From: Candidatus Polarisedimenticolaceae bacterium
Lineage (GTDB): Bacteria > Acidobacteriota > Polarisedimenticolia > Polarisedimenticolales > DASRJG01
Assembly: GCA_036376135.1 (NCBI GenBank)
Contig: DASVAW010000001.1
Coordinates: 1 to 35,019 of the forward strand
Length of the DNA stretch: 35,019 nt
Direction: 5' to 3'
A model generated the notes under the pieces. It ran no database searches. It had not been told where the DNA came from and worked only from the letters and a program-made list of their open reading frames with translations. Numbering within the stretch: position 1 is the first letter of the stretch; each line of letters begins with the position of its first letter. Positions 10,929-14,215 of this stretch are shown here, piece after piece. Made by a program: the position numbers and the translations under genes.

Positions 10929-11635
10929 TGGAAGCGCTCATCGACATCCGGGACGTCACGAAGACCTACGACATGGGCGCGGAGGCGCAGGTGCGCGCGC
11001 TCGACGGCGTGACCGTCTCGATCGCGGGCGGCGACTACGTCGCGATCATGGGACCGTCGGGGTCCGGGAAGTCGACGCTGATGAACCTGATCGGCTGCCT
11101 CGACACCCCCACGAGCGGCTCCTACCGGCTCAAGGGGGTCGAGGTCGCGAGCCTCAACGACGACGAGCTCGCCCGGATCCGCAACCGCGAGATCGGCTTC
11201 ATCTTCCAGACGTTCAACCTGCTCCCGCGCGCCGACGCCCTGCAGAACGTCGAGCTGCCGCTGATCTACGCGGGGCTCGGGCGCCGCGAGCGGCGCCAGC
11301 GCGCGGTCGAGTCGCTCGGCGCGGTGGGCCTGGGCGACCGCATGCACCACCGCCCGAACGAGATGTCCGGAGGTCAGCGCCAGCGCGTCGCGATCGCGCG
11401 CGCGCTCGTGAACAAGCCGTCGATCCTCCTCGCCGACGAGCCGACGGGAAACCTCGACTCGAAGACCGGCAAGGAAATCCTCGGCCTGATGGACGAGCTC
11501 CACGCGCAGGGGAACACGATCATCCTCGTGACGCACGACGAGGAGCTTTCCCACCGGGCGGCGCGCGTCGTGCGCCTGCGCGACGGGTTGATCGTCTCGG
11601 ACGACCGGAACCACGCGCTCCGGACCGGGGCCTAG
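10928..11635 (+). CDS. MacB/LolD-type ABC transporter ATP-binding protein
   Basis: A 235-residue stand-alone ATPase of the MacB/LolD/FtsE class. Walker A is GPSGSGKST (42-50), the Q-loop is [21 protein letters not shown] (family-typical), the signature is MSGGQRQR, Walker B is [16 protein letters not shown] and the H-loop is LVTHDEE. The family drives mechanotransmission rather than classic substrate passage: ATP hydrolysis in the cytoplasm moves periplasmic domains of the permease. The start overlaps the adaptor stop by one base (TGATG), and the permease follows after 7 bp. ATPase and permease are separate genes here, whereas E. coli MacB fuses them. Confidence 0.93.
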
Positions 11636-11642
11636 GAACCCG

Positions 11643-12857
11643 ATGTTCCTCGAGAACTTCTTCCTCGCCCTGAAGGCGATCTGGGCGAACAAGATGCGCT
11701 CGCTGCTCACGACCCTCGGGATCGTGATCGGGACCGCCGCGGTGATCGCCGTCGTCTCGATCGTCCAGGGGCTCAGTCGCGTCATCACGAGCGAGATCGA
11801 GGGAATCGGATCCACCGCGATCTTCGTCTCCCCCTACCGGCCGCCCGGGAAGGAGGGGGAGAAGCTCCAGCGCGTCGAGCTCACCTGGGACGACGGCGCC
11901 GCGCTGCTCGAGCGCGTCCCTTCGATCAACGAGGCGACCCCGTTCCTTCAGCGGTTCGGCAAGATCAAGTTCGGGGAGAACGCGGGGGACTACCCCATCC
12001 TCGGCGTGCAGCCCTCGTTCCAGGACATCCGACAGTACTTCGTGGACCGCGGCCGGTTCTTCGGGGCGATCGACGACCGGGAGCGCCAGAACGTCTGCGT
12101 CATCGGGCACGCCGTCGTGCAGGATCTCAAGCTGCCCTCGGAGCCGATCGGGGAGTCGCTCTCGGTGGGCGGGCGCACGTTCCGGATCATCGGGATCATG
12201 GAGAAGCGGGGCGAGCTGTTCGGGCAGCAGTTCGACAAGTTCGTGATGATCCCGTTCGCGACCGCCGTGGGGATGTACGGCGACGAGGCCTCGAAACAGA
12301 TCGCGTTGCTGGTGCGCGCCCGTGCCCCGGAGCTGGTCGACCGGGCGGTGGACGAGATCGAAAACGTCCTGCGGGCGCGGCATCGCCTGCGCTCGGACCA
12401 GCCCAACGACTTCGAGATCGGCACCCAGAAGGAGTTCCTGAAGTCGTTCAACAAGGTCGCCAACGGGGTGACCTACATCGTCGCGGGGATGGTCTCGATC
12501 GCGCTGTTCGTCGGGGGGATCGGGATCATGAACATCATGCTGGTCTCGGTGACCGAGCGGACCCGGGAGATCGGCGTCCGCAAGGCGGTCGGGGCCCGGC
12601 GATCCCACATCCTCCAGCAGTTCGTGATCGAGGCGATCACCCTCGCCCTCGTGGGGGGGCTCGTCGGGATCGTCATGGGGTACGGGGTCGGCCAGCTCGC
12701 GGCCAAGCTCATCCCCAACTGGCCGGGGTCGTTCGTCCCCCTCTGGGCGGTGATGCTCGCCTTCGGGTTCAGCTCGGCGGTGGGGCTGTTTTTCGGGATC
12801 TACCCCGCTGCCAAGGCCTCCCGGCTCGACCCCATCGAGTCCCTCCGGTACGAATGA
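11643..12857 (+). CDS. MacB-type ABC transporter permease
   Basis: A 404-residue inner-membrane permease with the MacB topology: one N-terminal span (about 18-40, in MRSLLTTLGIVIGTAAVIAV), a periplasmic MacB-PCD domain of roughly 220 residues (GIGSTAIFVSPYRPPG through LRARHRL), and three C-terminal spans (near 278-300, 328-352 and 364-388). The FtsX-like motif GGIGIMNIMLVSVTERTREI and the coupling stretch GVRKAVGARRSHILQQFVIEA are clear. It ends with the usual ASRLDPIESLRYE. With the preceding ATPase, adaptor and TolC-like protein it completes a tripartite efflux system; antibiotics, lipids or peptides are possible substrates, and nothing here decides which. Confidence 0.93.
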   Translation: MFLENFFLALKAIWANKMRSLLTTLGIVIGTAAVIAVVSIVQGLSRVITSEIEGIGSTAIFVSPYRPPGKEGEKLQRVELTWDDGAALLERVPSINEATPFLQRFGKIKFGENAGDYPILGVQPSFQDIRQYFVDRGRFFGAIDDRERQNVCVIGHAVVQDLKLPSEPIGESLSVGGRTFRIIGIMEKRGELFGQQFDKFVMIPFATAVGMYGDEASKQIALLVRARAPELVDRAVDEIENVLRARHRLRSDQPNDFEIGTQKEFLKSFNKVANGVTYIVAGMVSIALFVGGIGIMNIMLVSVTERTREIGVRKAVGARRSHILQQFVIEAITLALVGGLVGIVMGYGVGQLAAKLIPNWPGSFVPLWAVMLAFGFSSAVGLFFGIYPAAKASRLDPIESLRYE

Positions 12858-12868
12858 CCGGTTGCCAT

Positions 12869-12897
12869 TTGACCCATCGCGGACGGCGCCCCATCTT
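12869..12897 (+). promoter_or_regulatory. Candidate sigma-70-type promoter upstream of the duplicated-domain gene
   Basis: TTGACC (12869-12874) matches the -35 consensus at five of six positions. At 17 bp spacing it is followed by CATCTT (12892-12897), a weak -10. It sits just after the efflux operon and about 70 bp before the TTG start at 12969, so it would begin a new transcript. Pattern match only. Confidence 0.35.
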
Positions 12898-12968
12898 CTG
12901 ATCGACTTCAGGCAGCGTTCAGGGTCCGGTGGTCGGGCCGAGGGGACGACGCGGCCGCGGAGGCGAAA

Positions 12969-13526
12969 TTGGCGGCCAACCCCGGCGCGGGTCGCGTCTT
13001 TCGGCGCGTTCGCGTGCAGCTGGCACATGGGGCCCTCGAAGGGGGGCTGTGCGTCGGGGAGCAGGTCCGCACCCTGGACGATCTCAACATGGCCTCCGTC
13101 CGGTTCGTGACCCTGGTCGATGCCGTCGGGGAGGGGGCCGGGTTCCCGCTTGGCGACTCCCCCGTCGCCGTCCACAAATCCAAGATCCTCTTCCTGGTCG
13201 AGACCGGGGAGCCGCCCGCCCGTCTCGGCAGGAGCGCGATCGCCCAGCGGATGCACCGGGCCCGGATCCGGCTGCGGGTGGCCGACTTCCTGGTCGAAGG
13301 GTCGGTTCACGTTCCGTACGGCGGGCGACCGCTGCTCCGGCTCAAGCAGGAGGGGCACCCCTTCCTCGCCCTGACCGACGCCCGGGTGGTCGGCCCGTAC
13401 GCCACCCTCGAGGCGGGGTTCCTCGCGGTCCACAGGGACCACGTGATCGTCGGCCAGGACGTCACGGACGGGAGCCCCCCGGCGATCGAGATGGATCCGG
13501 CCCAGACGGACCACGCCGGGGCCTGA
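12969..13526 (+). CDS. Uncharacterised protein made of two similar ~65-residue halves
   Basis: A 185-residue protein I cannot assign to a named function. It has no signal peptide or membrane span and looks beta-rich. Its two halves resemble each other. Near residues 13-80: RVRVQLAHGALEG, then FVTLVDAVGEG, then VAVHKSKILFLVE. Near 96-165: RIRLRVADFLVEG, then FLALTDARVVG, then LAVHRDHVIVGQ. This R-[VI]-R-[VL] ... [LV]-E-G ... F-[VL]-x-L-x-D-A ... A-V-H-[KR] pattern implies an internal duplication. The start is TTG at 12969, five bases after GGAGG (12959-12963); no better ATG precedes the first repeat. It lies between the MacB permease (111 bp upstream) and exbB (53 bp downstream) on the same strand. 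Two small beta-barrel modules (for example PilZ- or OB-like) would fit, but that is speculation. Confidence 0.75.
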   Translation: MAANPGAGRVFRRVRVQLAHGALEGGLCVGEQVRTLDDLNMASVRFVTLVDAVGEGAGFPLGDSPVAVHKSKILFLVETGEPPARLGRSAIAQRMHRARIRLRVADFLVEGSVHVPYGGRPLLRLKQEGHPFLALTDARVVGPYATLEAGFLAVHRDHVIVGQDVTDGSPPAIEMDPAQTDHAGA

Positions 13527-13579
13527 GCGCCGCTGCGCCCCATGCAGCCCCGGAAGGGGTGGGGTATTCTCCACCGGTC

Positions 13580-14215
13580 ATGGGGTCCAATCTCGGCAGC
13601 TTGTACGCCGCGGGCGGTTGGGCGATGCACCCGATCAGCGCCTGCGCGCTCGTCGCGCTCGCCGTCGTCGCCTTCAAGCTCCTGCAGCTGCGCGCCGCCA
13701 GACTCGACGTCCCGACGTTTCTCGCCGGGGTGCGGGCGAGCCTGCTGAACGGCCGCGTCAAGGACGCCCTCGACCTGGCCGGGCGGTCCCGGTCTCCCGT
13801 CTCCGCCCTCGTGCGGGCCGGACTCCTCAAGCAGGGTCAAGCCCGCGCGGAGGTCGCGGACGCGATGGAGGCGGTGGCCCACTACGAGCTCGGCCGCCTC
13901 GAGAAGGGGCTGGGGGCGCTGGCGACGCTCGCGAACGTCGCCCCGTTGCTGGGATTCCTCGGCACCGTGTGGGGGATGATCGTCGCCTTCGACGTCGTCC
14001 ACCGGCAGGGGCTCTCGAACCCGGGGGCCGTCGCCGGCGGGATCGCCCAGGCTCTCGTGACGACCGCCTGGGGGCTCGCCGTCGCCTTGATCGCGGTCCC
14101 GTTCCACAACCTGTTCGCGGCACGGGTCTCGGCCCAGGCCCGGTCCATGGAACTCGCCGCGTCGACGCTCCTCGAGACCTTCTCGGAGATGGAGCGCATG
14201 GGCACGAAGGCCTAG
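13580..14215 (+). CDS. exbB: MotA/TolQ/ExbB proton-channel family protein
   Basis: A 211-residue inner-membrane protein forming the pentameric channel of a TonB- or Tol-type energiser that uses the proton motive force. Three spans are visible: about 16-38 (PISACALVALAVVAFKLLQL), 112-137 (ANVAPLLGFLGTVWGMIVAF) and 152-178 (IAQALVTTAWGLAVALIAVP). The cytoplasmic loop between spans one and two carries the charged region usual for the family. The GTVWGM and TTAWGL motifs are the ExbB/TolQ signature. The ribosome binding site is weak (a G-rich run upstream of the ATG). It heads an overlapping operon with two ExbD proteins, TonB and a TPR protein, which favours ExbB over TolQ. Confidence 0.88.
   Translation: MGSNLGSLYAAGGWAMHPISACALVALAVVAFKLLQLRAARLDVPTFLAGVRASLLNGRVKDALDLAGRSRSPVSALVRAGLLKQGQARAEVADAMEAVAHYELGRLEKGLGALATLANVAPLLGFLGTVWGMIVAFDVVHRQGLSNPGAVAGGIAQALVTTAWGLAVALIAVPFHNLFAARVSAQARSMELAASTLLETFSEMERMGTKA

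Follow-up and report, generated by a model that had tools for sequence, protein, structure and literature searches.

The protein encoded at positions 12969..13526 (+) of the window, i.e., the whole stretch of 35,019 nucleotides analysed from Candidatus Polarisedimenticolaceae bacterium (assembly GCA_036376135.1, contig DASVAW010000001.1), consists of two tandem domains of the DUF6812 family (PF20660), each predicted to form a small Sm-like beta barrel. Genes of this family are repeatedly found next to genes of type IV pili, and the protein can tentatively be viewed as a tandem Sm-fold, probably cytoplasmic, adaptor or scaffold of the pilus machinery that would bind a motor ATPase or its regulator. 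The interest of the gene lies in this predicted fold and in the neighborhood of the family rather than in its own locus.

Gene and Homologs

The gene begins with a TTG codon at position 12969, its stop codon ends at 13526, and the product comprises 185 aa. A probable ribosome-binding site, GGAGG (12959..12963, +), was recognized by reading the sequence 5 nt upstream of the TTG, and the start codons of the homologs (ATG, GTG or TTG) are located within 1–2 residues of it, which bears out the TTG start chosen in the initial annotation. The GC content at the three codon positions (0.78/0.47/0.91) is coding-like. The open reading frame, the Pfam match, the homologs and the common start mark 12969..13526 (+) as a real gene. 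The likely promoter of its own that had been attributed to it was not recovered by a scan of 12600–13700, limited to promoters of the sigma-70 type.

A search of 149 genomes yielded matches in nine, and a search of the phylum sample of 396 genomes again in nine, the source genome being counted in both cases. The homologs, nine genes in eight other genomes, cover 157–170 of the 185 residues with 32–43% identity and are collinear with the window protein from end to end. Their distribution is patchy (matches in 8 of 395 genomes when the source genome is excluded from the phylum sample); a genome of the same family as the source, G001, has no match, and the source genome itself has a single one in a whole-genome search. 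The plasmid and phage collections contained no match at E 1e-3, and there is therefore no sign of a mobile-element gene.

Internal Duplication and Family Membership

The two-fold internal duplication proposed for the protein is confirmed by profile self-comparison. In hhalign, with profiles of residues 8–91 and 92–169 built from 10 sequences each, residues 12–81 pair with residues 98–167 over 70 gapless columns (probability 97.4, score 59.9); in the window sequence, 26% of the paired residues are identical. The scores of 200 column-shuffled controls averaged 10.1 and never exceeded 17.0, and the reversed control scored 8.1. The N-terminal repeat (residues 12–81; 13002..13211, +) is below Pfam detection, and the C-terminal repeat (residues 98–167; 13260..13469, +) carries the DUF6812 match; both are predicted to be Sm-like small beta barrels. 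Two outcomes that had been named beforehand as contrary to a duplication, a self-alignment at the level of shuffled sequence and unlike folds of the halves, were looked for and neither was obtained.

The initial annotation could name no family for the protein; the DUF6812 match, however, passes the curated Pfam cut-off (29.8 versus 27.1 bits) at residues 109–159, and DUF6812 is matched by all 10 members of the close-homolog alignment. This match is confined to the C-terminal half, and the N-terminal half alone hits no Pfam family, the loose cut-off included. Profile comparison shows that the N-terminal half is homologous to the C-terminal one despite the missing match. The NCBIfam search of the window protein found no family. 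No literature naming DUF6812 or PF20660 was found. The family is known by name, its function is undescribed in Pfam, and the window protein is a further member.

Distant DUF6812 genes of the phylum mostly encode proteins of 150–215 aa, and three of these (L045, L048, and L049) contain two Pfam DUF6812 stretches each. The tandem arrangement is thus common to the window protein and the family, being a normal form of DUF6812 and not a peculiarity of this protein. The differences are that the N-terminal half of the window protein escapes Pfam, and that some family members comprise one domain only (82 aa in L043, 101 aa in L044). Outside the phylum, matches at a loose threshold occur in a Thermus, a Deinobacterium, a Synechococcus and two archaeal control genomes, one of these matches exceeding the cut-off.

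Two further genes of the family may be mentioned here. A gene of locus L050 (5378–6589, +) apparently carries a DUF6812 pair fused behind pentapeptide-like repeats, as judged by eye from the translation. The genome containing the window encodes a second, weaker tandem DUF6812 protein (G000:C116, L022 6258–6785, –), below the Pfam cut-off, whose gene is divergent from a DUF4388-TPR gene.

Predicted Fold

AlphaFold2 models of the whole protein and of the N-terminal half were built from four sequences each. The best of five whole-protein models reached a pLDDT of 73 and a pTM of 0.70, three of the five having a mean pLDDT under 42. Both halves of this model show the order strand, strand, helix, strand, strand, strand, comprising residues 9–18, 22–30, 35–39 (helix), 46–55, 66–69, and 73–78 in the N-terminal half and residues 95–104, 107–116, 121–127 (helix), 132–141, 146–155, and 159–165 in the C-terminal half. 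The N-terminal half modeled alone (pLDDT 79) has an identical order. The earlier expectation of two like small beta domains is backed by the profile self-comparison, the whole-protein model and the separate N-half model.

In a Foldseek search of the PDB with the whole model, the best 50 rows were all Sm/LSm proteins by entry title, chains of spliceosome entries being classified by these titles rather than singly, and the top match was SpLsm3 (4emg; E 7.4e-3, TM 0.69 by target length). With the N-terminal half alone, 48 of the best 50 rows were Sm/LSm by title. VIA-align gave Z 5.0 for the C-terminal half (rmsd 2.0 A, 59 residues) and a best Z of 6.9 for the N-terminal half (rmsd 3.2 A, 62 residues). 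No Foldseek match had E <=0.001 and every VIA-align Z was under 8, both beneath the level of a safe match. Circular permutation of the Sm fold, prompted by a chance-level helix alignment, was considered and dropped because the sequential structural match covers most of the domain.

At the sequence level, neither a single-sequence search of the PDB nor HMMER with a 12-domain profile (E<=10) returned a match. The hhalign comparisons with three archaeal Sm and nine Hfq sequences were no better than shuffles (100 for each of six comparisons), and Pfam scans of the window protein and its homologs found no Sm/LSm (PF01423) or Hfq (PF17209) match. The Sm2 signature is I-R-G before the last strand; it is present in none of the 10 alignment rows, and most homologs carry A-[VI]-[NH]-[KR] at the comparable place. 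Two groups of polar residues are conserved: R-x-L-D-x-L-N, which separates strand 2 from strand 3, and [NH]-[KR], which precedes the last strand. We take their sites to be comparable to those of the loops by which Sm proteins contact RNA. In the C-terminal half of the window protein, the first motif has lost its D and N.

The DUF6812 domains would resemble Sm/LSm proteins and Hfq in the small five-stranded beta barrel predicted for both halves and in its comparable strand order. They differ in the modeled helix, which is located between strands 2 and 3, whereas in the Sm layout it precedes strand 1, in lacking the Sm2 I-R-G and any sequence similarity found to Sm or Hfq, and, in the window protein, in having two domains per chain. 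The Sm-like fold, supported separately by both halves, is a prediction and not a statement of homology.

Such a fold would suit an RNA-binding post-transcriptional regulator, i.e., a tandem Sm protein that, like Hfq, targets mRNA or small RNA, all the more as both halves are predicted to be Sm-like and the two conserved polar motifs occupy sites presumably comparable to RNA-contacting loops. This role is, however, unlikely, given the missing Sm2 signature, the degenerate first motif of the C-terminal half, the lack of a sequence link to Sm or Hfq in the HMMER search of the PDB and in hhalign, and the canonical Hfq already encoded by the same genome (G000:C76).

Linkage to Type IV Pilus Genes

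A pilin-type (N_methyl) gene is located 1.8–3.2 kb from six of the nine close homologs, and such pilin-near regions make up at most 1.0–4.5% of each genome. The distances to pilin genes are 143 kb, 8.4 kb, and 8.9 kb for the remaining three (G005 copy 1, G009, and G026, respectively). One gene order is common to four of the six pilin-linked homologs, and a fifth (G007) keeps most of it. Since this gene order is shared by inheritance, the pilin-linked homologs represent few independent events, and perhaps two independent arrangements. In G028, the DUF6812 gene closes the second minor-pilin set of a pilus locus; the same contig carries pilB and pilT (T2SSE matches) and both minor-pilin sets.

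A conserved gene whose product has a CxxC zinc-ribbon-like N-terminus also neighbors close homologs (L019 7479–8756, L015 7005–8114, L018 6828–8093, L020 8429–9613, and L021 5681–6961); the products from L021, L019, and L015, scanned against Pfam, had no match.

Local profiles were used to scan 31 DUF6812 loci, a subset made up mainly of the highest-scoring sites detected, with six close homologs among them. A PilT-type ATPase is encoded within 1.5 kb at five of them (L031, L037, L039, L115, and L116) and a DUF4388 protein within the same distance at six (L012, L029, L032, L033, L111, and L117), while the other 20 have neither; in the control, 0 of 10 exbB loci have PilT or DUF4388 within 1.5 kb. 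One family-level group, f5, supplies five of the six DUF4388 cases, which therefore amount to about two events. The count of 3/13 loci within 1 kb has a probability of 2.7e-4 at a 1% background, ignoring shared ancestry. At L053 the stop of the DUF6812 gene overlaps the start of a T2SSE/PilT gene, and at L052 the gene order is GGDEF-EAL response regulator, DUF6812, PilT. The evidence for a pilus link of the DUF6812 family is moderate.

DUF4388 is presumably the cyanobacterial PATAN domain; no literature joining the two names was found, and DUF4388 itself was found, by title, only in the context of nitrite reductase.

The presence of a GGDEF-EAL response regulator beside DUF6812 at L052 and of DUF4388 proteins among the neighbors of the family could also point to a regulator that binds a ligand or second messenger, e.g., cyclic di-GMP, and sets pilus activity, with the barrels as the sensor. 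Small beta barrels of the PilZ type are known to bind cyclic di-GMP. Such a sensor is nevertheless improbable: PilZ had no match in the Pfam scans, and neither PilZ nor any other small-barrel family was recognized among the listed fold matches, the latter being a weak point since folds beyond those listed may apply.

Some other features of these neighborhoods were recorded. Genes beginning like those for SAM hydroxide adenosyltransferases, as judged by eye, are located near two DUF6812 genes (L047 7703–8512 and L022 2347–3129). A parallel to DUF6812 is offered by the canonical hfq genes of Acidobacteriota: at 11 of the 30 loci scanned (L078, L079, L084, L086, L089, L091, L095, L099, L101, L102, and L103, the Hfq stretch of L103 being unconvincing), a PilT-type ATPase is encoded no more than 1.5 kb away, and this adjacency includes the genome containing the window (G000:C76). 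No literature connecting twitching, PilT and Hfq in Acidobacteria was found, nor, by title, any on tandem Sm-like proteins at type IV pili. A tandem Hfq presumably occurs in Novosphingobium, although no literature on it was found.

Proposed Role in the Type IV Pilus Machinery

On the most parsimonious reading, the gene product would be a small, probably cytoplasmic, non-enzymatic protein with two tandem DUF6812 domains, each forming an Sm-like small beta barrel, and would serve the type IV pilus machinery on its cytoplasmic face, as an adaptor or a scaffold. The bound partner would be a pilus component, most likely a motor ATPase of the PilT/PilB family or its regulator. With the duplication, a single chain would hold two barrels that differ from each other, and fewer, asymmetric subunits could suffice for a ring or half-ring.

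The binding may be comparable to that of Hfq on PilB1 in Synechocystis. Pili of this cyanobacterium require Hfq, which binds to the pilus base via PilB1 (PMC4390875); PilB1 also interacts with a PATAN-domain regulator (PMC7690835). The likeness consists in an Sm-fold protein at the base of the type IV pilus on the one side and DUF6812 genes adjoining those of PilT-type ATPases on the other; the interaction in Synechocystis is experimental and depends on a cyanobacterial C-terminal part of PilB1 (PMC4390875), whereas that of DUF6812 is a proposal.

The wider proposal that DUF6812 is a bacterial family of Sm-fold adaptors for type IV pilus motors, mostly tandem and partnering PilT/PilB ATPases and DUF4388 signaling proteins, is more doubtful than the role suggested for the window protein. 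If it is true, Sm-like recruitment to pilus ATPases, known for one cyanobacterial Hfq, would be a general theme. Should both the predicted fold and the association with pili be borne out, docking of a small Sm barrel on a pilus ATPase would also be a trait of a family present across Acidobacteriota. For DUF6812, the analysis provides a fold prediction, a domain architecture and, with the type IV pilus, a setting that can be tested.

Position of the Gene in the Window

The DUF6812 gene is located 111 bp downstream of a gene for a MacB-type ABC permease (11643..12857, +) and 53 bp upstream of exbB (13580..14215, +), both named by eye, so that the placement on one strand between an efflux operon and the ExbB-TonB operon, as originally described, is correct. 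The macB gene is directly adjacent to exbB in G001 and G002, and the DUF6812 gene between them therefore looks like a lineage-specific insertion. Another gene separates macB and exbB in G004, only the ATPase half of macB is present near exbB in G003 and G005, and no macB occurs near it in G009.

The exbB gene is conserved in relatives lacking the DUF6812 gene: by tblastn, the DUF6812 protein was absent from all six exbB loci of relatives examined. Conversely, none of the nine homologs has an exbB-like gene nearby, the sole case on the same contig being ~36 kb away in G007, with the assemblies fragmented apart from that of G005. A linkage of DUF6812 to ExbB/TonB, which the initial annotation proposed to survey, was rejected on these two counts and looks accidental to the lineage of the window. 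The suggestion of a cytoplasmic regulator or ligand-binding protein for envelope functions survives in part: a cytoplasmic location is plausible, no hydrophobic N-terminus being visible by eye, while the tie to ExbB/TonB or to efflux is unsupported.

No N_methyl or T2SSE domain is among the listed matches (for N_methyl, the stronger ones) on contig C1, which carries the window, and the type IV pilus locus of the same genome is found on contig C94. At the site of C94 equivalent to that of G028, the gene for PilR (60.6% identity) is followed directly by that for ornithine carbamoyltransferase (61.3%), with neither the second minor-pilin set nor a DUF6812 gene. This arrangement is consistent with relocation of DUF6812 from the pilus locus, or with its loss at C94 and retention elsewhere. 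On the pilus-adaptor reading, the window gene would stand outside the pilus locus, the home of most of its close relatives, and its position between macB and exbB would be incidental.

The gene could also be a lineage-specific leftover that left the pilus locus and is heading for loss, with no present role. Its occurrence in so few genomes of the phylum sample, and its absence from G001 of the same family, agree with this; the full length, the conservation of motif positions, the good ribosome-binding site and the coding-like codon positions speak against it and make it quite unlikely. An accessory role in the adjacent ExbB-ExbD-TonB or MacAB system, for which co-transcription would be possible given the common strand, the short gaps and the lack of a sigma-70-like site between the genes, is very unlikely, since the gene is missing from the exbB loci of all relatives examined and no close homolog is near exbB.

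The frame 11520–13574 (–) and other long antisense open reading frames of the window are unlikely to be genes and appear as a product of the high GC content; the codon-position GC agrees with the sense frame instead.
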